Positions 43,619 through 56,363 are shown, counted from the stretch's first letter. The stretch is 64,000 nucleotides of DNA from Candidatus Obscuribacter phosphatis (GCA_001899315.1 MOYA01000001.1:1774599-1838598); one strand, 5' to 3'. Notes: generated by a model from the sequence alone, not told the origin. Numbers and translations: made by a program.

Positions 43619-44773
43619 CTAGGCAAGCAGGACTTCGCGGCAAGTTTTGTCGCGAAGTCGCCATATAGCGCCATCGGCGGTGAAATGATGGAAGTTGATG
43701 CAGGCTTGGATGATAGTGGCCGTGGCGACAAAGTCAAAGCCATAGTTCTCAAGCACCTTGGGAATGCAGACATAGATGAGAAAGCCGGCTGAAATGACCA
43801 TACCCCAATAAAAACGTCCTTCTCGCGAGAAACATTCCCTTAAGATATGCCTGCTGACCTCACCCATACGTTCGCGCGAGATTTTCAGTGCTTGCTCCTT
43901 CAAAAAGAAACTGACCGAAACAGCAAGATATTGACTGCCGTGAAAGAAGGGCGGTCCGTAAACCCAGAGAATGGCATGAGCCATACCGGTTGACAAGCCG
44001 ATGCCCAAGACAGTGAAGACCAAACAAAGCGATGGCAAGGGGAAATACTGTTTCTCAAGTATGGCTTTGCGCAACAAGACAAAGATGAAGGCACAAGACA
44101 TGGCGGCAAAAATGACGGTGCAGACCTGAGCCAATATTTCGGGCAGGGCATAGAAAGGCAGTTTCACACCCCAGAGATCGTCGGGTGAATGATCACGGTA
44201 ACAAAGAATTCTAGATATAACAAAGGCCGAGAAGCTATGCATAAACCAGCGATAGGTCTCGCGTTCCCAATTTTTTAGGACATAGCCGCGCTTGTAGCAA
44301 TAAATCAGTGATATTCCAAATGTCTGTCCGACATAATGCTGGAAGACCCACATCAAATGAAGATAGACACAAAAGCCTGCCGCCCGCGGATAGAGCAAAC
44401 ACAGCGAAAAGAGAAGCAAACTCATCCAAGGCAGATAATAAGCATAAAGCTTGAACCTTTCTCGGTTTTCTGCTGTTGAATAGATGCGCATATAAGTCGA
44501 GACAGTATGAGCATCAGCAAAGATATAAGTGCCTAAAGTCTGGGCGAAAAGCAGACCATATGAAGCAGTGCCGGCTAGGCCCGGAGCTTTGGGATCGAGT
44601 GTATCCCAGTGGAACCAGTAAACTTGCAAGAGGAAGAGAATCCAAAAGAAGCCACCTACGACGAAGAGATAGTCGAACAACGGACTAACCACCCAAGCAT
44701 AGGGAGTGGTGGATGTCGCCACCGCCCGCGGTTGCAAAGGAGCGCTGTCAGAGCCGAAGGTTGCACTTACCAT
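43619..44773 (-). CDS. Multi-spanning membrane protein with conserved His residues (paralog A)
   Basis: 384 residues with about nine helices. Motifs shared with the next gene: FADAHTVSTYMRI, FQHYVGQTFGISLIYCYKRG, YRDHSPDDLWGV, FFHGSQYLAV and INFHHFTADGAIWRLRD close to the end. These place at least five His in or near membrane segments, as in metal-dependent membrane enzymes, but I do not recognise a named family. ATG with GAGGTAG upstream. 20 bases separate it from its paralog. The C-terminal motif H-H-F-x-x-D-x-A-I-W-R-L-R is the strongest signature. Confidence 0.65.
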   Translation of the reverse strand: MVSATFGSDSAPLQPRAVATSTTPYAWVVSPLFDYLFVVGGFFWILFLLQVYWFHWDTLDPKAPGLAGTASYGLLFAQTLGTYIFADAHTVSTYMRIYSTAENRERFKLYAYYLPWMSLLLFSLCLLYPRAAGFCVYLHLMWVFQHYVGQTFGISLIYCYKRGYVLKNWERETYRWFMHSFSAFVISRILCYRDHSPDDLWGVKLPFYALPEILAQVCTVIFAAMSCAFIFVLLRKAILEKQYFPLPSLCLVFTVLGIGLSTGMAHAILWVYGPPFFHGSQYLAVSVSFFLKEQALKISRERMGEVSRHILRECFSREGRFYWGMVISAGFLIYVCIPKVLENYGFDFVATATIIQACINFHHFTADGAIWRLRDKTCREVLLA

Positions 44774-44793: not shown

Positions 44794-45918
44794 TCAGGCC
44801 AAAAGTATCTTTCGGCAATAGGGGTCGCGCAGCCGCCAGATAGCAGCATCGGTAATGAAATGGTGGTAGTTGACGCAGGCAAGAACCAGACCACCGATCA
44901 TCGAGAAGTTATAACCAATCTGCATGAAGAAATGCGGTATGCCAACATAGAAGAAAACGCCTGAAAGTATGACCAAGCCCAGATACTTCATACCGGGTGC
45001 ACCCATAGCCTGTTTGGATATCTCCCAGGTATTCATACCTTCAGGCATGCCGCGCTCTTTCAGATAATAAGCAAGACAAACAGCAAGATACTGGCTGCCA
45101 TGGAAGAATCCTGGAACATAAAGCCAGAACATGGTGTTGGCAACATCTTTAGAAAGACCGAGGCAGCCCACTGTGAAAATCAAAAGGAAAGACTGCCAAG
45201 GCATGATCTTGTCTTCACGCAGGTATTTGCGCACAAGCACAATGACAAAGGCGACAGCCATAAAGAAGAATAAGAAACGGGATGTATTGTGGAAGACCTC
45301 GGGCAAGGGTCCCCAGAAAGGAATGTCTACACCGTACCAATTACGCGGACTGAGGTCGCGATAGGTGAGAAAGCGAATTGTCGTCCAGCCGACCATAGAG
45401 AACATGAACCAGCGAAATATTTCTTTCTCAATGGCGGTCATATAATAACCGCGCTTGTAGCAATAAATGAGCGCTATACCAAAAGTCTGCGCCACATAGT
45501 GCCAATAAACGGTGATTAGATAAATGTAGACAAAAGTGCCAGTCAGCCCAGGCACACTTAGCCCAAGAATAAACATGGGAATTGTCGAATAAGCCAGCCA
45601 GGTACGGTGGAACTTGAAGCGTGCCTGGTCTTCAGCCGAGCCCCAGATGCGCAAATAGGTGGCGCTATTATGCGAATCGGCAAATAAATGTTGAGAGAGA
45701 AAACCGATAGTAACAAGCCAGAAAGAAGCAGGGTCGGTCAGTGAGGTGGGAATGGTCCAGCCCAAATAGAGATAATTGACGGCAAAAAATATGAGGGCGC
45801 CGCCACCGCAAATAAAGAAAAAATCGATGAAAGGAGAAATGATCCAAGGGTAGGGTTTTTCTGATGACACGCTCTTCGGAGCGTCCATACTGCCTGCGGA
45901 CATTGTGCTGCTTACCAC
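44794..45918 (-). CDS. Multi-spanning membrane protein with conserved His residues (paralog B)
   Basis: About 374 residues, about nine helices, clearly homologous to the gene at 43619: FADSHNSATYLRI, YWHYVAQTFGIALIYCYKRG, TYRDLSPRNWYGV, FFHGSQYLAVCLAYYLKE, VNYHHFITDAAIWRLRD. Start GTG at 45916-45918 has GGGAG seven bases upstream and gives MVSSTMSAG, matching the MVSATFG start of paralog A; the longer ORF from 45960 lacks this match. Function unknown; a membrane enzyme is plausible from the invariant His. Confidence 0.65.
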   Translation of the reverse strand: MVSSTMSAGSMDAPKSVSSEKPYPWIISPFIDFFFICGGGALIFFAVNYLYLGWTIPTSLTDPASFWLVTIGFLSQHLFADSHNSATYLRIWGSAEDQARFKFHRTWLAYSTIPMFILGLSVPGLTGTFVYIYLITVYWHYVAQTFGIALIYCYKRGYYMTAIEKEIFRWFMFSMVGWTTIRFLTYRDLSPRNWYGVDIPFWGPLPEVFHNTSRFLFFFMAVAFVIVLVRKYLREDKIMPWQSFLLIFTVGCLGLSKDVANTMFWLYVPGFFHGSQYLAVCLAYYLKERGMPEGMNTWEISKQAMGAPGMKYLGLVILSGVFFYVGIPHFFMQIGYNFSMIGGLVLACVNYHHFITDAAIWRLRDPYCRKILLA

Positions 45919-46066
45919 TGCCTCTCTCCCTCTTGATTTTGGAGTTTTTCTCCAACCCAACTCAATTATAATTCTACCCCTACAATCCCCAGTCTAACAC
46001 CTGTTTACCAACATAAAAGTACCCCATAAATACTTCACGCTCACTTCACACTCGACTCACCCTTCC

Positions 46067-47095
46067 TCAGGCAGATTGACCAGAAGAGACAGCCAGGCGG
46101 GAAAGATAATAGGGTGCCGTTCTCTCCACTGTCTCTCTGAACGGGGTGGCAACGAAGCCTAATTCATCTTGAGCTTTATCGCTCTTGAAAAATATTCGTT
46201 TACAACTCAAAAAGGCCTGTTGTCTAGTCAGGGTCACTTTCTCTTTCGACGCCCCTGCTAAAACCGCCAGTTCGGCAAGTTCTCCGGCCAGACGAACCAG
46301 CCATTCCGGCAGTTCGAAAAGGGGCGGGCGGCAGTTGTAAATTTGAGCAAAAATGCAAGCCGCTTCTCTAAAAGTAAGATTGGCACTGACTAAGTTATAG
46401 CGCTCGCCGGCTCGCCCCTTCGCAATAGCACTGATATGAGCCGCCACCACATCTTCGATATCTGAAAAAGGGATACCGCCGGGGGGGACAGCCGGCACAC
46501 CGGCTTTCATACTGCGAAAAATAGCTAGATGGTGCGGATGGGTATCGCCCTCGCCGAAAACGATGCCTGGATTGAGCAAGACTACATTCAAGCCCTGTCT
46601 GAAAAACTCAAGAGCGACCTGCTCGGCCGCTTGCTTGGTATCACAATAAGTCAGACCTCTGCCGCCGAGGTTATAGACAATTTTCTCATCACCGAAGCAA
46701 CCCTTTTTGACCATTGCTTGGTCGGGCAGACCAAGGGCGGCGATTGAACTTGTCTGTATTACCCGAGCACCCATGCCATGGGCTACTCTCAAGATATTGC
46801 GGGTGCCCTCAACATTGACTCGCACCTGTTCGGCAAGGTCGCTTGAGCGGTAGCTGACCATGCCGGCTAGATGATAGACGACGTCGAAGCGCCTGCCGCC
46901 GACAGCGCTTTCGACAGACTGCCACTCTCTGATATCACAGGCGATAAACTCGCTATTGTCAACAGATGCGCCATTGCTGGAAGGTTTATTGCGACCGAGA
47001 AGGCTTAGATTGTGACCATCCTTGGCCAGGGCTCGCACCAGATGCTTACCGATAAAACCCGATGCACCGGTGACCAAAATATCCATTACCGGCAT
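46067..47095 (-). CDS. Extended short-chain dehydrogenase/epimerase
   Basis: 342 residues. NAD(P)-binding motif VTGASGFIGKHL, then D-I at ACDIREW, VYHLAGMVSY, and catalytic Y-x-x-x-K in YCDTKQAAE; VVLLNPGIVFGEGD follows. This is the extended SDR (dihydroflavonol reductase/3-beta-HSD-like) type. It is the last gene of a seven-gene operon and its ATG overlaps the preceding stop (TAATG). Substrate unknown; the operon suggests a lipid or acyl-linked one. Confidence 0.8.
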   Translation of the reverse strand: MPVMDILVTGASGFIGKHLVRALAKDGHNLSLLGRNKPSSNGASVDNSEFIACDIREWQSVESAVGGRRFDVVYHLAGMVSYRSSDLAEQVRVNVEGTRNILRVAHGMGARVIQTSSIAALGLPDQAMVKKGCFGDEKIVYNLGGRGLTYCDTKQAAEQVALEFFRQGLNVVLLNPGIVFGEGDTHPHHLAIFRSMKAGVPAVPPGGIPFSDIEDVVAAHISAIAKGRAGERYNLVSANLTFREAACIFAQIYNCRPPLFELPEWLVRLAGELAELAVLAGASKEKVTLTRQQAFLSCKRIFFKSDKAQDELGFVATPFRETVERTAPYYLSRLAVSSGQSA

Positions 47096-48060
47096 TAGCG
47101 CGAGCCTTTATGACTAAATACTCTATAACCTGCCAAGGCTTGCCCAAGCGGCGTCACTTCCACTAGTTGGCTCAATGAGTTGGAGGTTGTGACATTGTCT
47201 ATAGTGGCAAGATAGGCCTGGTCGCTACTCAAGATTGGCACATCGCTGATTTTCTCACTGATGGTGGCAAGCACTGCCGCCAATTTGTAAGGTAAAGTCA
47301 AAAAAGGCTTTTTCCTGCCAACGACAGCCAAAAGCCTTTCCACAAAGCTCCTCATAGAGAGTTTTTCTGCCCCGCCAAGCTCAAGAGTGGCCCCGGCCAG
47401 TGCATCGCTCTCAAAACACTGAGCAATAGCCAGGGCTAGATCGCCTACATAGACAGGCTCGATCAGGTTGTGCCCGCCGTCTATCAAGGGTATAAAGGGA
47501 CGCTGGTCGGCGAGATCTAAATAACGTTTCACCAGCTTGCTATCGCGAGTACCCACCTGGCGGCCGACAATTAAAGAAGGTCTCAAAACAGTAAGACGCT
47601 CTCCCAAAATCGACCTTGTCGCCTCTTCAGCCAAAGCTTTGCTCTTAAGATAAAGCGACTGTGAATCTTTGTCAGCACCAAGGGCGGTGACCATTACAAC
47701 TTTCTCAAGCCCGGCTTGAGCGGCATAGGTGGCAAAAGCAGATGCCATCTGAGGATGCAGCCCCTCAAATGATTCACCCCGGCGCGGAGCAATAGAGCCG
47801 ATAAGATGCAAACCATAGTTGGCACCGGCGAAAGCGGCACTCAAAGCAGCAACGTTGTTGCTATCTGACTCTTCCAGCTTCAGTTGGGCGATACAAACTT
47901 GGGCACCGAGCGCTTCGAGGGTGGCACGGTCCACCGGTCTCGACTGCGGTCTTACCAGCGCCTTTACAGCATAGCCCCTGGCAATCAAGGCATTTACCGC
48001 ATGCAGACCTAAATAGCCGCTGGCGCCGTCAACTAGGACAGTTTTCATGTCTGTGTTCAT
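47095..48060 (-). CDS. Atypical extended SDR, NAD(P)-binding
   Basis: 321 residues. Nucleotide-binding VDGASGYLGLHAV (the usual T-G-A is D-G-A), ALVRPQSRP (Arg suggests NADP), then KSKALAEEATR in the catalytic Lys region, where the Tyr at -4 is LYLKSK. This places it with atypical SDRs of the NmrA/NDUFA9 kind (complex-I 39-kDa-like). Two possible ATG starts lie four codons apart (48060 and 48048). It overlaps the DUF962-like gene by about 32 bases. Confidence 0.75.
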   Translation of the reverse strand: MNTDMKTVLVDGASGYLGLHAVNALIARGYAVKALVRPQSRPVDRATLEALGAQVCIAQLKLEESDSNNVAALSAAFAGANYGLHLIGSIAPRRGESFEGLHPQMASAFATYAAQAGLEKVVMVTALGADKDSQSLYLKSKALAEEATRSILGERLTVLRPSLIVGRQVGTRDSKLVKRYLDLADQRPFIPLIDGGHNLIEPVYVGDLALAIAQCFESDALAGATLELGGAEKLSMRSFVERLLAVVGRKKPFLTLPYKLAAVLATISEKISDVPILSSDQAYLATIDNVTTSNSLSQLVEVTPLGQALAGYRVFSHKGSR

Positions 48061-48421
48061 GCCTGTGCTTTCTTCTAGGCTTGGCGCGGCTGCTGCCCAA
48101 ATTATTAAAGCTGCTTGCCCGATTTTTAAAGCCGCTTGCTTTCAAGATCTTCTTCACCAAGAGCACTTCGCCTACTTCATTGCCTTGACTTCTATGACCA
48201 ATGAACTGCAACCAATAGCCAAGAATCAAACAAGAAATACCGAGACCCTTATCTTTCAGATTTCCGGAAAAGAGTTTGTAAACTCCAAAGAAAGCCAGAG
48301 GCACGCCAAAAATGTGCAACAAAGCATTGACAGGATGTTTATGACGCTTGGCATAGTCGCTAAGAAAACTCAAAGCCGCATTCTTGGTTTTGCGCAAAAC
48401 CACTGTTCTTGGAAAAGTCAT
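48029..48421 (-). CDS. DUF962/Mpo1-like small membrane protein
   Basis: 130 residues. HKHPVNALLHIFGVPL followed by a helix and LGYWLQFIGHRSQGNE matches the H-x-x-P-x-N...Q-x-x-G-H pattern of Mpo1/YGL010w-type proteins. The yeast member is an Fe(II)-dependent dioxygenase that oxidises 2-hydroxy fatty acids. This one is shorter than eukaryotic members and has a His/Arg tail (RRKHRHEHRHE) where the next gene overlaps. ATG with GTGAGG upstream. In this operon it may act on an acyl chain, as inference. Confidence 0.65.
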   Translation of the reverse strand: MTFPRTVVLRKTKNAALSFLSDYAKRHKHPVNALLHIFGVPLAFFGVYKLFSGNLKDKGLGISCLILGYWLQFIGHRSQGNEVGEVLLVKKILKASGFKNRASSFNNLGSSRAKPRRKHRHEHRHENCPS

Positions 48422-48427
48422 ACAACC

Positions 48428-49459
48428 TCACTTCGCTTGAATTCTGCCGATTGTCTCCTGCATCGCCTGTGAAAAGCCAACACAGTCGGCAAAGGGATAG
48501 CCCAGAACTTTGCGTGCTTTCTCGATACTGAAGCCCTGATTGACCGCAATCAAACGAAAGGCTCCCGGTGAAAACCGAGCAAACTGTGCTTTGCTTTTCT
48601 CGTTAAAGATACCTGATATTGAGCCGATTGTACCCAAAATTTCAAAGAGCGCTTTAACCACCGGTCTTGGCAAATTCTTCTTGATGCGAGGCACCCCTAG
48701 GGCATCCGCCACGGTATCAAAGAGCATCTTTTTGCTGACCAGCTCGGGGTCGGTTACATTAAAAATCTGGTCATAGGTGGCTTCATTCAAGAGACAAGCC
48801 TTAATAAGGCTACTCAAATTGCGCACATAAACAACATTAGTCGCTCTGGTACCGCCATCCACAAGTATGGCTTGTCCTTGCAAAACAGATTGCATCACCC
48901 GCTTCAACCAGGCTCTTTCACCCTCGCCATAAATGAAACCAGGTCTCAAAATGGTTATGGGCAGCCCACCATGCATAAGACCTTGTAAATACTTCTCGCT
49001 TTCCACCTTGCTATCGGCATAGGCTTCACCGCAAAGACACAAGGGCGCTTGTTCATCGAGATCAAATTGATCATGCTGCCCGGTAATCACCGATAGCGAG
49101 CTAATATGAATGAACTGCTTCACCCCGCAAGCTTTAGCCGCTTGATAGGCATTCTCGGTGCCCTTCAGGTTGACTGCAAAAATCTTCTGCCTATCGGCCA
49201 GAGGGTCGACAAAACCGGCCGCATGCACAACTATATCGAGTCCGGCAAAAGCCGCTTGCAGAGCCGCTTGGTCTAAAATATCGGCGCCGGCCACCTCAAT
49301 GTTCTCCCGCCCGACCATGGCTTCGGGTCGCCTAGCGATGGCTCGCACTTTTACATTACTAGTGTTGTCAGATAAATAAGAAAGCAAGTCTGAGCCGACC
49401 AAACCGGTGGCGCCGGTAATACCGACTTTAATAGTGTCACTGGCAGTCAATGCGGTCAT
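48428..49459 (-). CDS. Extended SDR, 3-beta-hydroxysteroid dehydrogenase-like
   Basis: 343 residues. ITGATGLVGSDLL nucleotide fold, GADILDQAAL, VVHAAGFVDPLADRQ, SSLSV then YADSKVESEKY (catalytic Tyr-Lys), ILRPGFIYGEGE. Closest in type to 3-beta-HSD/sterol C4-decarboxylase-like SDRs. Its ATG overlaps the GH3 stop (ATGA). Two further SDRs follow in the same operon. Substrate unknown. Confidence 0.82.
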   Translation of the reverse strand: MTALTASDTIKVGITGATGLVGSDLLSYLSDNTSNVKVRAIARRPEAMVGRENIEVAGADILDQAALQAAFAGLDIVVHAAGFVDPLADRQKIFAVNLKGTENAYQAAKACGVKQFIHISSLSVITGQHDQFDLDEQAPLCLCGEAYADSKVESEKYLQGLMHGGLPITILRPGFIYGEGERAWLKRVMQSVLQGQAILVDGGTRATNVVYVRNLSSLIKACLLNEATYDQIFNVTDPELVSKKMLFDTVADALGVPRIKKNLPRPVVKALFEILGTIGSISGIFNEKSKAQFARFSPGAFRLIAVNQGFSIEKARKVLGYPFADCVGFSQAMQETIGRIQAK

Positions 49460-51126
49460 AAAGCAGCAATCCGATCGGCTATACCGCCCTGACTCAATAA
49501 AGGAATCTTGACTTGAGCCTCCGGCGCTCCTTCCATAACGCGCATTTGCCGCAGTCGAGCATAAGTGCCCGCCTTAAGAAGCTGCAAGCGCGGAGGGCCA
49601 AGGCGACGACTATCTCTTTTGTCGCAGTATTCCTGATTGTTCTCTTTCAGGTGGCGGTCGAATTCCTGCAAGAACTTTCTTTCAAAATCTTCGTTGCCGA
49701 AAGCAGAATGGTCTACCTCGGCATAACACAAATAGTAGGGCGGCCGGTCTAGTACTACTTCGGCGGTAAAGTGCTTAATTTCAGAAAGGTCGAGCTTGGC
49801 CACCGAGCCTTTCAAAGCAGCTAGAACTTGCTCTTCGGTGATTTTTTCTCCGGTCACCGAACTGACGCCGCCGCCTTTTCTGACAAAGCTCAGAACCGGA
49901 GTGGCATGCAGAAAATCTTCAACCAACATCAGATCGTTGATGTTGTAACGATATAGACCGGCGCTGGTGGTGAAATAGATAAAGTAGCGTTCGCCCTTCT
50001 TCAATTCATCGGCAAGAAGAAATCGAGGACTGGCGCTTTCGATATCATCTTCATGGACAAATTCAAAGAAATGAGATGTCACTGCCAAGGGACCGGCGGC
50101 TGACTTAGAATCAATAGGCACTGTTCCTCGCCCTTCCGAAGCCATATAGCCGAAATCTCTGATTTGCAGGTCGCCGTATAATTCAGGCAATTGTTCGAGA
50201 TAGAAGCCCATGGGGCCGCCTTTCCAGCAAGAGAAAACCTCTACACTGGGAAAAGCTTGTTTGGGTAAAATCTGCCCTTCTTTCTCTAAGATGGAGGACA
50301 ACTGAGCAGCACGGCCGGCATCGGGCTTGAGATAGGGGCTGAAGGCATTGAGAATACGACTGCTCACCCCTTCGGTATAGCGAGGATTGATTGTCCCCCG
50401 AGCTATATCATCGATAAGACTTTCTGCCCGGTGGCGCAATTGATCTGCCAGAAGTAAAAAAGAAGATGGATTGCAGCCAAGCATGGCACTGACGTTCTGC
50501 ACCAAGGCGGCTCGCAAAAGCAGATAATATTTAGCATCAACATCTTTGATCTGACAAAGTTCAAAGGGTAAGGCGAAATGTCTTCTAATCACCGGGCTCT
50601 GATTGCGATTGAGCATGCCTGAGACAGCACCATAGGGCAAGCCGCATTCAGTTCTGCCTTCTTCGTCGTTTGAGGTGATGATCAAAAACTTGCCGAAGGC
50701 TCCGCGGGGATGATCTTTGATCAGATGGTAATTATGTACCTGAAAGGCATGGGTATAATCACGCACATGGCTCTTATTTATGGGCACAAACTTGGGTTTG
50801 GCCGTAGTACCACTGGTAGTGGCAAACATAAAGGGCTCGTCGACGGTCAACTGCCGCTTGCCACCCTTACACAAAGACTCTATATAGGGCTCGAAATAGT
50901 CATAACCGCAAGCGGGCACCCGCCGTCTAAAATCTTCCAGTGAATTTATCTTGTCGAAGTGGTGGGCGCGGCCAAAGCTCGTATCGGCGTTTGTTTTGAT
51001 TAAGTTCTGCAAGAAAGCTTCCTGCACCCGCCTAGGCTCTTTCAAACCATTGAAAAAACGGCGTATATGACTATGGCGCCTAATGAACTGACCGGCAAGA
51101 ATATCTAAGTTAAGCAGTTCATTCAA
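49456..51126 (-). CDS. GH3-family acyl-adenylate amide synthetase
   Basis: About 556 residues. GH3 enzymes activate a carboxylic acid with ATP and join it to an amino acid. Visible are the ATP loop TTSGTTAKPKFVPI, FTTSAGLYRYNINDLM (the plant GH3 form is T-x-x-A-G-L-x-R-Y-x-x-G-D), and SSVTGEKITEEQVLAAL at the C-terminal hinge. Length is normal. I chose TTG at 51124-51126, eight bases after GAGG and overlapping the upstream stop; a longer ORF from 51228 has no support. It sits directly after an enolase-superfamily epimerase-like gene. Confidence 0.85.
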   Translation of the reverse strand: MNELLNLDILAGQFIRRHSHIRRFFNGLKEPRRVQEAFLQNLIKTNADTSFGRAHHFDKINSLEDFRRRVPACGYDYFEPYIESLCKGGKRQLTVDEPFMFATTSGTTAKPKFVPINKSHVRDYTHAFQVHNYHLIKDHPRGAFGKFLIITSNDEEGRTECGLPYGAVSGMLNRNQSPVIRRHFALPFELCQIKDVDAKYYLLLRAALVQNVSAMLGCNPSSFLLLADQLRHRAESLIDDIARGTINPRYTEGVSSRILNAFSPYLKPDAGRAAQLSSILEKEGQILPKQAFPSVEVFSCWKGGPMGFYLEQLPELYGDLQIRDFGYMASEGRGTVPIDSKSAAGPLAVTSHFFEFVHEDDIESASPRFLLADELKKGERYFIYFTTSAGLYRYNINDLMLVEDFLHATPVLSFVRKGGGVSSVTGEKITEEQVLAALKGSVAKLDLSEIKHFTAEVVLDRPPYYLCYAEVDHSAFGNEDFERKFLQEFDRHLKENNQEYCDKRDSRRLGPPRLQLLKAGTYARLRQMRVMEGAPEAQVKIPLLSQGGIADRIAAL

Positions 51127-52307
51127 AGTTCGGTCCTCAACTGTCGACTGTCCTTCAAACTTACGCCAAGACCATCCAGCGGTTCCGGCTTCAAAGAGAC
51201 AACTGCACCAAAGGGTACAGTCTGACATTCTCTGGTCAAATCACGCCTGAGCAGAAATAAATTCATCGCCCCTTCCACATTGGCAAAAGTCTCTGGGCAA
51301 GCAGAAAGAGCCAAGTGTTTCTGGGCTGAAGCTAAGATGCCCGACTCGCCAACCTGGGCACCCAGATGGGCTTCCATCTGATTAGCCAGCGCCAGTTCGG
51401 TAAGGCGCACAGCCGCAATTATGCCGCCGACTTTAGAAATTCTAATGTTAAAGCCTCGGCAAGCTTTTGTTTCAATCAGTCGATAAGCCGACTCTAGAGT
51501 GGTGAGCGACTCATCGACAATAATTGTTTCTTTGATGCGACTCTGCAAAATGGCCAGTTCGGTTAAGGCATCGGCAGGCAATGGCTGTTCAATCGAAGCC
51601 GGGTTATAGGGCCTCAAGACTTCCATCATCTTCTCGGCCTGGGGCAAACTCCAGGCACAGTTAGCATCCAACCTCAAAGTGGTTTGAAAACCCAAGACTT
51701 CCCGGGCCAACTTTACTTTAGCTAGGTCATCTTCGTCGCTTTTACCGACCTTTAGTTTTACTGTTCTAAAACCATAAAGTTTATAAAAGGCTAGCAAAGC
51801 CGCTAAAGTCTGCTTCTTGCCAAAGGGCACCACTCCGCCATAACGAAAGAAAGCATCTTGTCGCTCGCCTCTAAACAGGGAATTTGCAGCCAGCCGCCGG
51901 CAAATAAATTGTGCCATGCTAAGTTTTGCCAGGCGTGCCAAGGCATCAAGAAGAGCTAGTTCGAAGGCGCAGAAAGAAGCACCAAGCTTCCTAGACTCTA
52001 AGCCCTGCTCGGCAAAAAGCTCTTTCAGAAAAGCAAGAATGGAATCTGCATCAAGAAAAGAGCGCCCCACCACCAGTGGTGCCAGTACCTCTCTCACATA
52101 CTGCGCCGCTTCTTCCGCCCGCTCACCGGTGACATACTGCCTTGGCACTGATTCGCCCAGCCCTAGGGCAGTCAGCCCGGTGGCTTCGTCTCTGAGATGC
52201 AATCGAACGATGACATTTTCAGAAAAGCTGCGACTGGCAAGGGCATGCCCAAATGCAAAGCGAAAAGGCAGCTTGACTATGCTTACATGAACGGCACTGA
52301 CTTGCAT
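51123..52307 (-). CDS. Enolase-superfamily enzyme, dipeptide-epimerase/N-acylamino-acid-racemase type
   Basis: 394 residues in the muconate-lactonizing subgroup. The catalytic ladder is complete: K184-x-K186 in TVKLKVG, metal ligands D214 (RLDANCAW), E240 (SIEQPL) and D265 (VDES), and K292 (RISKVGG) on the opposite face; a late GAQVGESGILASAQKHLA follows. Two opposed Lys bases fit 1,1-proton transfer (epimerase, racemase) or o-succinylbenzoate synthesis. No other menaquinone genes are nearby, and the coupled GH3 gene makes an acyl-amino-acid or dipeptide substrate more attractive. Overlaps the GH3 gene by 4 bases. Confidence 0.8.
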   Translation of the reverse strand: MQVSAVHVSIVKLPFRFAFGHALASRSFSENVIVRLHLRDEATGLTALGLGESVPRQYVTGERAEEAAQYVREVLAPLVVGRSFLDADSILAFLKELFAEQGLESRKLGASFCAFELALLDALARLAKLSMAQFICRRLAANSLFRGERQDAFFRYGGVVPFGKKQTLAALLAFYKLYGFRTVKLKVGKSDEDDLAKVKLAREVLGFQTTLRLDANCAWSLPQAEKMMEVLRPYNPASIEQPLPADALTELAILQSRIKETIIVDESLTTLESAYRLIETKACRGFNIRISKVGGIIAAVRLTELALANQMEAHLGAQVGESGILASAQKHLALSACPETFANVEGAMNLFLLRRDLTRECQTVPFGAVVSLKPEPLDGLGVSLKDSRQLRTEL

Positions 52308-52313
52308 CTATTG

Positions 52314-53276
52314 CTAGGTAACTACAGGTTGGCGTGCCAGTATCCAGTCGGCTAGAACATGGGTGTATTCTTTGATCCAGTTGGCGTCAAAATCGAGTGA
52401 ATGCTGGGCATCAGGGAATATGCGTAGGTCTTTTGTCTGAGACTTGATGCGAGAATACCAACCCTGCAATTTATCCACATCAACGATGCGATCTGAGCCT
52501 GATTGCAAAATCAAGACCGGCATCTCAATAGTATTACAAGCCTTTTCAGCCAGCTTAGATAGCTTAAAAGACTCGACAAAGAAATTGGATGTAGCTTCAG
52601 TGAGTCTCAAAGTATCGCGCTTGAGAAAGCCTTGAAAAGTAGGATTATCGGTGAACATATCCACTTCTATGGGAATGGGCCATTTGCGGTGAGCGGCATT
52701 ATCACCGCCCAAAATAGAGGTATAGGCAATTTGCAACTTGGTGGCGGCACCATAATCGACCTTGGTAAAAATAGCGGGCGAGGTCAAAACCAAGCCGGCA
52801 ATCGGTAGATTCAGTTCACCACCAACAGGCTTATAGTCTTTCTGAGCAATTACCGATGCAGCCTTGCCGCCCCAGCAATTGCCAAGCAAAATAATCGGAT
52901 GCCCAACAAAATCAAAGGCAATTTTTCTTAAAATTACTTCTAGATCGGCTAAGTAAGCCTTGTAACTTGACAGATTGCCTCGGTCGCGGGGATTGAGACC
53001 GGCACCGCGTCTATCTGGAGCTATTACATTGATGCCCAAGGCATTAAGGTGACTGGCTGTATTCTCGAACCACTGGCTATGCCCTTCTATACCATGCAGA
53101 TATAGCACCACCGGATGACCCAACTTGCCCTTCCAAATGCGGGTGGCCAGTTCGACCCCATCAGACATGCGCATCTTAACGAAGTCGGGGGCTATTTGCT
53201 GTATACCGGCAATAGAAGGCAGAGGGGTGGAGACAAGGTCTTTCAAGAAAAATACCGAAGTAGAGGCGCCGAGCAA
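52314..53276 (-). CDS. Alpha/beta hydrolase with cysteine in the nucleophile elbow
   Basis: 320 residues. Core: VVLYLHGIEGHSQWF (oxyanion region), APDRRGAG, elbow LLGNCWGGKA with C134 where most members have Ser, Asp in QSGSDRIVD and His in DAQHSLDF. G-x-C-x-G elbows occur in dienelactone hydrolases and in polyester synthases. It is the promoter-proximal gene of the seven-gene operon, so it may define the pathway substrate. TTG start without a clear ribosome-binding site; the exact N terminus is uncertain. Confidence 0.78.
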   Translation of the reverse strand: MLGASTSVFFLKDLVSTPLPSIAGIQQIAPDFVKMRMSDGVELATRIWKGKLGHPVVLYLHGIEGHSQWFENTASHLNALGINVIAPDRRGAGLNPRDRGNLSSYKAYLADLEVILRKIAFDFVGHPIILLGNCWGGKAASVIAQKDYKPVGGELNLPIAGLVLTSPAIFTKVDYGAATKLQIAYTSILGGDNAAHRKWPIPIEVDMFTDNPTFQGFLKRDTLRLTEATSNFFVESFKLSKLAEKACNTIEMPVLILQSGSDRIVDVDKLQGWYSRIKSQTKDLRIFPDAQHSLDFDANWIKEYTHVLADWILARQPVVT

Positions 53277-53373: not shown

Positions 53374-54219
53374 ATGTTAAAACCAGGGCTACAGAACGAT
53401 CAAATAGTAGAGAAGACCGACAAGGCGGGCAGCCTCAATAGACGCACCCTGGAAAAGCTGACTAGAATTTCAGAATCACTGGCCTCAGCTCTTGAAGATG
53501 GCAATTTCATCGCATCAGTAGGCAAAGACATTAAGGCCGGCAAAGAAATCTGCCTTAACCTCTGGCCCTTCATTAAAGGACTGCCCGACAATATCTCTGC
53601 TGTTAAGGACAAATTGTCTGCTTCTTTTCTAGAGCCGCAAACAGTGGCAGCGCTAGCCCCTGGTCTCAAGCTGTTACAGCAACTGGCCGACGACGAGAGA
53701 CACTATCAGAACCTTTATCTAAACCAATGCCGCCTGGCTGGTCTAAGCCCCGAGGACTTGCAGCAAGTAGTAAGGACAGTGAGGGAGAGCACAAGCCCTT
53801 ACGCCGACCTGAGCAAAGCAATGGACCAGTTTTGCCAAGCTGGCAGCCCCCGCGAAGGCGTGCTAGCGATCATCACAGCTGAACTGGCGGCCACCCAGTT
53901 TGCCCGCATAGCCTTACCGGCTTTCGAAGCCTATTTCGCCGGCAAACCGCAGCAATACCCTAAAGAACTAGTAGACACCGGTTTAGAATGGCTGCGCCTT
54001 CATGCCAAGCCCAACACCAGACACGCCATCTGGATGAGACGTCTTTTGCTGGTTGTGGAAGAGGAAGCCTCTCAGTCCCAAGATAATGGAGAACTTTCTA
54101 ATATTCGCCAGTGCGAGGACCTGAGCACTTCTAATTATTCTGAAGCGGCAGTGGATAAAATCACCAACAGCCTGAAAGCAATCTGGAAAAATGACGAGAG
54201 CTTATCTAATCAATCATGA
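53374..54219 (+). CDS. Helical protein, possibly haem-oxygenase-like diiron fold
   Basis: 281 residues, nearly all alpha-helical and soluble. LQQLADDERHYQNLYLNQCR, AELAATQFARIALPAFEAYF and LRLHAKPNTRHAIWM are reminiscent of the TenA/CADD-like (haem-oxygenase-like) helical bundle. The third has H-x3-N-x2-H, close to the H-x3-D-x2-H metal triad of that fold. The match is by eye. It overlaps the LolA-like gene by four bases (ATGA) and starts a rightward envelope cluster. If the fold is right, a metal oxidase or TenA-like enzyme is possible. Confidence 0.4.
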   Translation: MLKPGLQNDQIVEKTDKAGSLNRRTLEKLTRISESLASALEDGNFIASVGKDIKAGKEICLNLWPFIKGLPDNISAVKDKLSASFLEPQTVAALAPGLKLLQQLADDERHYQNLYLNQCRLAGLSPEDLQQVVRTVRESTSPYADLSKAMDQFCQAGSPREGVLAIITAELAATQFARIALPAFEAYFAGKPQQYPKELVDTGLEWLRLHAKPNTRHAIWMRRLLLVVEEEASQSQDNGELSNIRQCEDLSTSNYSEAAVDKITNSLKAIWKNDESLSNQS

Positions 54220-54989
54220 ATCTAAGCACTTTTAGAAACTACAGCCTTATTTCTCTATTCTTGGCCCATTGTCTGAGCGCTGTGAGTTTGCCCGCTTGGG
54301 CAGCCGGTCCCAAGAAAGAGAACAGAATTGCCATAGCCGGAATGTCCAGAGAAAACAAAGACAATTACATAGACGCCCAGAACTTTGTAGAAGAGATGTA
54401 TAAAAGTGCAGACTCTTATGAAGATTATCTCTTTGAATATCAAATGATTGCCTTCAAAAGAGGTCGTGTAGTGGAAGAAGGCAAGTTCTATTTCAAAAAG
54501 CCACAACAAATTAGATTGGAAGAAACCGGTTCTTTTAGAAAAGGTTCTATTGCAGTCCGGGGTAAGGAAGGCAAAATCAAAGCCAAAGCCGGTGGAGGTC
54601 TTGGCTTTATCGTAGTTGAGCTTTCTCCCGATTCCGGTCTTCTGCGATCGGCCAATGGGCATCCGATGGTGGAATCAGACCTGACTTCACTGGCCCAAGC
54701 CCTGCGAACTTATGTTAGACAGGGCAAGTCTCTCAGAGTAACAGCCGAACCCGTAGATTACGGTGAAGACGAGCTGACTGAGAAAGTGCATATTCTCGAG
54801 GTCTACCATGACAAAGACCAGAGCGACATCTTTAAGCGAGTAACAGTGCATCCGCGCACTAAGTTGCCCCTTGAATGGTGGGATTTTGAAAAAGGAAAGC
54901 TGGTCAGCCATTCTAGATGGAAAAGCTTCAAGGGCAACGTAGGTTTATCAGATCAAGTTTTCACCATAAAGGGAGAAAAAGTACAGTAA
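54216..54989 (+). CDS. LolA-like/DUF1571-like periplasmic protein
   Basis: 257 residues: signal peptide ending SLPAWA, then a domain with YLFEYQMIAFKRGRVVEEGK, YFKKPQQIRLEE, a variable centre and a repeated-strand end (KLPLEWWDFEKGKLVSHSRW). This follows LolA/LolB-type half-barrels that carry lipoproteins or lipids. Start overlaps the previous stop (ATGA) and its own stop overlaps the next start (TAATG), so three genes are co-translated. Cargo unknown. Confidence 0.65.
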   Translation: MNLSTFRNYSLISLFLAHCLSAVSLPAWAAGPKKENRIAIAGMSRENKDNYIDAQNFVEEMYKSADSYEDYLFEYQMIAFKRGRVVEEGKFYFKKPQQIRLEETGSFRKGSIAVRGKEGKIKAKAGGGLGFIVVELSPDSGLLRSANGHPMVESDLTSLAQALRTYVRQGKSLRVTAEPVDYGEDELTEKVHILEVYHDKDQSDIFKRVTVHPRTKLPLEWWDFEKGKLVSHSRWKSFKGNVGLSDQVFTIKGEKVQ

Positions 54990-55645
54990 TGGATGCACAT
55001 TTTTTCAATCCACCCACCTGGGCGGTAGTAGCCCTGGCCGCAGTAGGAGTGGTTCTTTCTACGCCGGTTCTGGCTAAAGGTTTTTCGCGCCGAGGCAAAG
55101 GTGTATTTTACGAATCAAACTTCCTCATTCAGCGTGCACCACAGTTAGTATCAGTCTTTAATATCGTGCTTGTATTTATTAGTTTCTTTACTTACAACAA
55201 TCACATCAGCCCTCCGCTTGCCACTCCACTCTTCACTCTCACCCAAGCCGACCCCGGTGCGCTCAGCATCGTTTCTTGGCTTGGCGTACTGGTCATGCTC
55301 TCCGGTTTCGTCTTTATGATCGGTGGCTGGTATTCTTTGGGTGAAGCTTTTTCCACCGATGCGGAACTTTTAGACGGGCAGAAAGTCAAAGATACTGGTC
55401 TCTTGAAATTTGTTATGCATCCCGCCTATTCAGGCATAATCCAATCACTCACCGGTGCATCAATCGCCGCCCTCTCGCCTTTGAGCTTAGGTCTGGCAGT
55501 ATTTGTCGTAGCTCCGCTCTGGCTCAACCGCGCCAAATACGAAGAGGAACTCTTGATCAAGACCTTTGGTGAAAATTACAAGGAATATGCAGCCAAGCTG
55601 AAGTGGAGAAGATTGGTGCCAAGTTTCATACCAATTGGTGTCTAG
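54989..55645 (+). CDS. Isoprenylcysteine methyltransferase (ICMT)-like membrane methyltransferase
   Basis: About 218 residues, five helices. The C-terminal half has VMHPAYSGIIQS (family R-H-P-x-Y-x-G) and YEEELLIKTFGENYKEYAAK, the E-x-x-L...G-x-x-Y-x-x-Y signature of ICMT/PEMT proteins that methylate membrane substrates with SAM. Start ATG at 54989 follows GGGAG and overlaps the preceding stop. Bacterial substrates are generally unknown. Confidence 0.75.
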   Translation: MDAHFFNPPTWAVVALAAVGVVLSTPVLAKGFSRRGKGVFYESNFLIQRAPQLVSVFNIVLVFISFFTYNNHISPPLATPLFTLTQADPGALSIVSWLGVLVMLSGFVFMIGGWYSLGEAFSTDAELLDGQKVKDTGLLKFVMHPAYSGIIQSLTGASIAALSPLSLGLAVFVVAPLWLNRAKYEEELLIKTFGENYKEYAAKLKWRRLVPSFIPIGV

Positions 55646-55697
55646 TCTAAATGAGAGGCTTAGGCTAGAATCTTTACAACACATAAGCCGGTGCCCG

Positions 55698-56363
55698 ATG
55701 AAAAAAACTCTAAATATCCTTGTTATATCTTCCCTGCTACTAGCTGCAACCTCGGCGCCGACCTTAGCCCGCGATTCAAAGGCCAAAAACTCAGGCAAGA
55801 CAGCAGGCGTCAGCGCTACTGCTCTAGACAAAAATAACGAACTTGACCGAGAGCTAAATCGAGAGCTAAATAAGGTAGAGGCCAGGGATAACTCCCAGTG
55901 GGCTTCCGGCTCGGTGGTGATCAAAGCGCCGCCCGAAGTTGTCTGGCAAGCCGTGCATGACGAACGCAACAGCGACCCAGATCTGGCTTACAGCAAAATA
56001 CTCGAGCAGGGCGAAAACGAATGCAAGCTGGAGCAGAAATTCACGTTTATTCCAGTTATTGGCACTGCAGTCTGCCAGATGTACAACCGCGAAGTGCCCA
56101 ACGAGCGTATCGACTATAAACTAATCAAGTCGGACCGCTTCAAAGCAATGGAAGGCTCTTGGGTGCTGACCGCCATCGAAGATGGTAAGACCAGACTGGA
56201 TTTATCCACTAACCTCGATATGGGCATACCGGTTCCAAGAGGCATGGTCAACGCCATAACCGCAAAAAAATTGGCGACAAGATTAAAACACGTAAAAGAA
56301 ATGGCCGAAACCAGGCACGCTAAGCTGGCCCAAAACAAGAAACACCCATTAGCGCCCCAATAG
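55698..56363 (+). CDS. Exported SRPBCC (START-like) protein
   Basis: About 221 residues: signal peptide (MKKTLNILVISSLLLAA, ending PTLA), short charged linker, then the SRPBCC fold: SVVIKAPPEVVWQAVHDE, ILEQGENECKLEQKF, GSWVLTAIEDGKTRLDLS and a long C-terminal helix. Such domains bind hydrophobic ligands; with the LolA-like and ICMT-like genes before it, lipid handling in the periplasm is a reasonable guess. I chose ATG at 55698, which gives the signal peptide, not the longer frame from 55635. A terminator follows. Confidence 0.72.
   Translation: MKKTLNILVISSLLLAATSAPTLARDSKAKNSGKTAGVSATALDKNNELDRELNRELNKVEARDNSQWASGSVVIKAPPEVVWQAVHDERNSDPDLAYSKILEQGENECKLEQKFTFIPVIGTAVCQMYNREVPNERIDYKLIKSDRFKAMEGSWVLTAIEDGKTRLDLSTNLDMGIPVPRGMVNAITAKKLATRLKHVKEMAETRHAKLAQNKKHPLAPQ

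Follow-up and report, generated by a model that had tools for sequence, protein, structure and literature searches.

A conserved seven-gene operon linking a GH3 amide synthetase to an enolase-superfamily enzyme in Candidatus Obscuribacter phosphatis, with a possible role in aminolipid biosynthesis

We analyzed a stretch of 64,000 nucleotides from Candidatus Obscuribacter phosphatis (GCA_001899315.1, MOYA01000001.1:1774599-1838598), referred to here as the window, in which seven closely packed genes occupy positions 46,067 to 53,276. The host is a non-photosynthetic relative of cyanobacteria with a genome assembly of 5.5 Mb, whose nearest named relatives are Candidatus Obscuribacterales/Melainabacteria assemblies; this genome was surveyed by family searches. 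All seven open reading frames proposed in an initial annotation were recovered at their positions on the minus strand, and every family named for them was matched by Pfam. In transcription order, these are:

52314..53276, minus strand: alpha/beta hydrolase, gene 1 (Pfam Hydrolase_4, 2e-39)
51123..52307, minus strand: MR/MLE-type enolase-superfamily enzyme, gene 2 (Pfam MR_MLE_C, 5e-36)
49456..51126, minus strand: GH3 acyl-acid amido synthetase, gene 3 (Pfam GH3, 7e-64, plus middle and C-terminal domains)
48428..49459, minus strand: SDRa, gene 4 (Pfam 3Beta_HSD, 4e-28)
48029..48421, minus strand: DUF962/Mpo1-like small protein, gene 5 (Pfam Mpo1-like, 4e-8)
47095..48060, minus strand: SDRb, gene 6 (Pfam Epimerase/NAD_binding_10, listed jointly with SDRc)
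46067..47095, minus strand: SDRc, gene 7 (Pfam Epimerase/NAD_binding_10, listed jointly with SDRb)

As originally described, all seven neighbors overlap or are separated by about six bases at most. Promoter and terminator scans gave signals no better than those of shuffled sequences. The longest GH3 reading frame starts at 51228 and overlaps the enolase gene by 106 nt; the likelier start, judged from the sequence, is a TTG at 51126, which has a GAGGA seven bases upstream and shares four nucleotides (TTGA) with the enolase stop codon. With this arrangement, the enolase and GH3 genes appear to be translationally coupled.

GH3 was present in 34 of the 35 relatives searched, all from the same genus or family. 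All seven genes occur in unchanged order in 25 of 31 distinct Obscuribacterales loci, which argues that the grouping does not reflect chance. The six incomplete loci either reach a contig end (L036, L038) or have no recognizable DUF962 gene (L037, L042, L073, L095). The operon is thus real and conserved across a family and, as shown below, in part beyond it; a lack of conservation had been named beforehand as an observation that would speak against the pathway.

The product of the third gene is recognized as a GH3 acyl-acid amido synthetase by its N-terminal, middle and C-terminal domains and three nucleotide motifs (TTSGTT, GYMASE and GLYRYNIND), of which SGTT, MASEG and GLYRYNIND are conserved across 28 sequences. 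It is the only GH3 in this genome. Plant GH3 structures match it at an E-value of about 6e-25, with GH3.12 scoring highest and other plant GH3s almost equal. Its sole curated family match is OlsH, at 101 bits against a cut-off of 620, and an assignment as the ornithine-specific OlsH itself was rejected on that score. Bacterial GH3 enzymes are numerous but, to our knowledge, almost uncharacterized apart from OlsH.

The enolase-superfamily protein carries the complete catalytic set K184, K186, D214, E240, D265 and K292, that is the KxK motif, the opposite lysine and the metal ligands, invariant in 32 sequences; both lysine bases reported initially (K184/K186 and K292) are therefore in place. Its closest solved structures are dipeptide epimerases, muconate cycloisomerases and N-acylamino acid racemases of the MLE subgroup, with a best phmmer score of 104 bits. 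For the subgroup member YkfB, a two-base mechanism with facing lysines has been established (PMC5808125). The protein also has invariant residues of its own (H21, R26, R56, Y58, R289, VGE321 and E345). In dipeptide epimerases, a DxD motif holds the amino group of the dipeptide. This motif is absent here (position 343 is variable and 345 is Glu in all sequences), which would fit a substrate devoid of a free amino group. On this ground, and because the genome encodes a DgcA-like epimerase at another place, a function as dipeptide epimerase was discarded. We propose, from these sequence features, that the enzyme may act as an N-acyl-amino-acid epimerase.

The other MLE-type gene of the genome, the DgcA-like one (L170, C1:2.13 Mb), has the sequence DLD at the motif and lies beside a gene that we take to be DUF1611/DgcN of D-amino-acid catabolism; the two likely form a D-amino-acid pair.

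We also considered o-succinylbenzoate synthase of the classical menaquinone route. The MenC/OSBS models scored far below their cut-offs for the enolase protein (75/201, 71/288 and 47/131 bits). MenD (PF16582) was not found in the genome by a search that was positive in E. coli and other controls, and two MqnA/MqnD-type genes are present. Together, these observations make this function unlikely, and the grouping with o-succinylbenzoate synthases that would have undermined the initial interpretation did not emerge.

The hydrolase has an intact Cys-Asp-His triad (C134-D262-H292), with the cysteine located in the predicted elbow GNCWGG. The cysteine nucleophile is found in 30/30 family members and in three of four Chloroflexota relatives, the remaining one having serine. 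The AlphaFold2 model (pLDDT 93) places the protein in the monoacylglycerol-lipase fold, the best Foldseek matches being human MAGL (E 3e-21), and the NCBIfam hits include no OlsI-type family. Both points speak against a role as acyltransferase, which is proposed on the analogy to OlsI and on the cysteine nucleophile; the enzyme could also remove acyl groups rather than transfer them.

All three SDRs retain YxxxK. SDRa is a 3-beta-HSD-like extended SDR with YADSK, whose nearest named family is 2-alkyl-3-oxoalkanoate reductase, far below the cut-off of that model. SDRb is a divergent NAD-binding SDR, and SDRc is an extended, HpnA-like SDR with YCDTK that reaches 186 bits with the NCBIfam HpnA model (cut-off 368). 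The small protein scores 33.8 bits with the DUF962/Mpo1-like model, above the gathering score of 24, and has the conserved motifs RH..P.N..H..GVP and Q..GH..QGNE with conserved H27, H36 and H75.

Opposite the hydrolase gene, a divergent unit of four genes is kept in most loci of the family:

53374..54219, plus strand: haem-oxygenase-fold (CADD-like) protein (family profile against CADD structures 1rcw/8va9, 3e-8)
54216..54989, plus strand: DUF1571-like protein
54917..55645, plus strand: PEMT/ICMT-type membrane methyltransferase-like protein
55635..56363, plus strand: SRPBCC/START lipid-transfer-like protein

The first of these genes, overlooked in the initial annotation, is a probable partner of the operon module. 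Its product is assigned to the haem-oxygenase-like fold by profile, but oxygenase activity is uncertain, because the family does not have the conserved Asp of the HxxxDxxH iron site, where Asn, His, Gln and others are found instead. Downstream of the operon, about a third of the loci contain two further genes, whose membership in the module is uncertain:

44794..45960, minus strand: T1, His-rich multi-helix membrane protein, matching no known family
43619..44773, minus strand: T2, a T1 paralogue (40% identical)

No Pfam family matched T1 or T2, and a structure search with the T1 model found no solved (PDB) fold. Invariant histidines occur in the motifs FADSH, WHY.AQ.FG, FHGSQY and HHF..DAAIWRLRD, and the two proteins are possible membrane metalloenzymes.

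To look outside the family, we searched GH3 neighborhoods of Chloroflexota and of other classes of the cyanobacterial phylum with profiles of all seven proteins, Cyanobacteriota and Chloroflexota being the phyla sampled in depth. Either the hydrolase-enolase-GH3 trio or the enolase-GH3 pair was found in both groups. Two Chloroflexota loci (L150, L153) have the trio in the same order as in the window, and the pair occurs in L043, L151, L152, L156 and L160. At L152, a cysteine hydrolase gene lies about 6 kb from the pair. The Chloroflexota locus L043/L183 combines the enolase-GH3 pair with divergently oriented genes for a DUF962 relative (83 bits), SDRa relatives (221 and 139 bits in L183), a second GH3 and a cysteine hydrolase, and RND and MFS pumps adjoin the Chloroflexota locus. 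The pairing of GH3 with MLE-type enolases, for which a neighborhood search had been suggested, thus recurs in a second phylum. No enolase neighbor was seen for the opened GH3 genes of other cyanobacteria or, in most Obscuribacterales, for the second GH3. On the GH3 tree, which was built quickly and some of whose branches are long, the genes that have an enolase neighbor are clustered: the trait requires 3 changes compared with 24.9 expected, and 0/500 shuffles were as low.

Several of these loci join oxidation to the core genes. At L156, an iron-containing oxygenase (4e-18) is encoded by a separate gene with a four-base overlap with the enolase gene, and at L151 such a domain (2.7e-15) forms one protein with the enolase; this apparent fusion could also come from a frameshift in the assembly that runs two overlapping genes together. 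The GH3 of L160 begins with a fatty-acid-hydroxylase domain (Pfam 9.5e-29); among curated families, this domain matches the ornithine-lipid hydroxylase OlsE best (1.5e-53; 182 bits, cut-off 475). The domain content of L160 and L151 points to lipids, although both are distant, long-branched members of the GH3 tree.

Among the closest known systems is that of Singulisphaera acidiphila, where the GH3 enzyme OlsH couples a free fatty acid to ornithine at the expense of ATP, giving an N-acyl amino acid, the alpha/beta-hydrolase OlsI attaches another acyl chain, and both together yield ornithine lipid in vitro (PMC12493201). The window shares with it a GH3 ligase and an alpha/beta-hydrolase in one operon. 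However, the planctomycete operon contains an N-methyltransferase and has no enolase, SDRs, DUF962 or oxygenase, an enolase is not mentioned in that paper (PMC12493201), and the sequences differ as described above, in the GH3 score and the OlsI-type family match. Compared with the MLE subgroup (N-acylamino acid racemase/NSAR, YkfB, muconate cycloisomerase), the fold, the KxK motif with opposite lysine and the Asp/Glu/Asp metal ligands agree, but the window protein is distant, does not have DxD and shows its own invariant residues. OlsE resembles the domain of the enolase-neighbored GH3 at L160, and an OlsE-like gene also lies near a third GH3 class (L089/L090), but OlsE is absent from the operon of the window, and the L160 domain reaches less than half of its cut-off. 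Among haem-oxygenase-like diiron oxygenases (CADD, UndA type), the CADD structures match the 53374 protein by profile, and true members adjoin the enolase at L156 or are fused to it at L151, whereas the window family lacks the Asp of their iron motif.

Altogether, we regard aminolipid biosynthesis in the manner of OlsH/OlsI, with an epimerization by the enolase-superfamily enzyme, as the best reading, at about even chances. It is favored since the N-acyl amino acid made by such a GH3 would suit the racemases of the MLE subgroup. In this pathway, GH3 would use ATP to activate a fatty, possibly oxidized, acid and would couple this acid with an amino acid. The MLE-type enzyme would then invert the alpha-carbon of the N-acyl amino acid with its two facing lysines and Mg2+, and the cysteine hydrolase would, like OlsI on the way to ornithine lipid, transfer an acyl group (or else remove one). 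The SDRs would set the oxidation state of the acyl chain, and its carboxyl end may be the site of action of the Mpo1-like protein and of the divergent protein with the oxygenase fold. Gene order, conservation, catalytic residues, the linkage across phyla and the domain fusions are what we observed; the amino acid, the epimerization step, the direction of acyl transfer, the product and the Mpo1 reaction are inferred. The acyl-amino-acid lipid suggested initially is hence partly supported: the lipid acyl amide is strengthened by the fusion of an OlsE-like domain to GH3, by the enolase-GH3 pairs of a second phylum and by the GH3 plus alpha/beta-hydrolase route to ornithine lipid (PMC12493201), and its other parts, that is the epimerization, the amino acid and the Mpo1 step, stay conditional and the whole unproven. 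As initially presumed, no such cluster was found in the literature searched on GH3 with N-acyl amino acids, Obscuribacterales lipids and bacterial DUF962, a search in which subscription journals were mostly outside coverage.

In the main rival, the enolase would work before GH3, and its substrate would be a free acid substituted at the alpha position, such as a 2-hydroxy or oxidized fatty acid, which GH3 would then couple to an amine. Oxygenase, fatty-acid-hydroxylase-like or Mpo1-like partners would make the acid, and the product would be a lipid amide without epimerization of an amino acid. The L151 fusion and the L156 overlap, which set oxidation beside the enolase and not beside GH3, agree with this order, as do the Mpo1-like protein in the operon and the position of the enolase gene before GH3. 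However, the closest solved enolase relatives all belong to the MLE subgroup and are not hydroxy-acid racemases, and we consider this rival clearly less probable than the aminolipid pathway.

A menaquinone-like route to an aromatic acid, with hydrolase, enolase and ligase in the places of MenH, MenC and MenE and a GH3 conjugating the acid like plant GH3.12, appears improbable. The three enzyme classes do correspond, GH3.12 is the top solved GH3 (with the near-equality of other plant GH3s noted above), and UbiD-like and AMP-ligase genes, whose families were read by eye, lie beside the L152 pair. However, the OSBS models gave overall 30-75 bits for cut-offs of 130-288, a lipid-type domain is fused to GH3 at L160, the window ligase is of another family than MenE, its hydrolase has Cys rather than Ser as nucleophile, and MenD is missing from a genome whose two MqnA/MqnD-type genes provide another quinone route. 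A catabolic operon, with hydrolase and enolase salvaging compounds of the N-acyl or D-amino acid kind and GH3 activating the freed acid, would fit the MAGL-like hydrolase fold and the DUF1611/DgcN-like neighbor of the DgcA-like gene (2.13 Mb), but is equally hard to credit, given that GH3 enzymes are ATP-consuming amide synthetases, that the conserved set has no amidase or thiolase and that the pumps by the Chloroflexota locus suggest export.

More tentatively, and with the balance somewhat against it, the cysteine alpha/beta hydrolase, MLE-type enolase, GH3 and iron-oxygenase partner might constitute an undescribed core module, common to Obscuribacterales and Chloroflexota, that makes bacterial lipids of a new class, located in the membrane or exported, namely N-acyl amino acids with D configuration or oxidized chains. 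The operon links one GH3 clade to an enolase-superfamily enzyme of obscure function and to lipid enzymes, so that both functions become testable together. It predicts lipid chemistry for the Obscuribacterales, which are deep-branching relatives of cyanobacteria, and the enolase adjoining GH3 provides a search image for other phyla.

Other GH3 genes were met in different surroundings. In most family members, though not in the genome studied here, there is a second GH3, which adjoins a protein of about 2100 residues resembling part of a polyketide or fatty-acid synthase (L046, L050, L054 and similar loci), often with a glycosyltransferase-like protein of 400-456 residues between the two. GH3 genes on plasmids were distant members only, and the Streptomyces one that was opened has no annotated enolase neighbor; it lies in a polyketide cluster (L173, NZ_CP027299.1, 15.2-32.8 kb) that also contains a gene for a threonyl-tRNA ligase, which may be a copy for self-resistance. 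The third, very divergent GH3 class occurs in two genomes (L089, L090), where the gene for an OlsE-like fatty-acid hydroxylase lies a few kilobases away.
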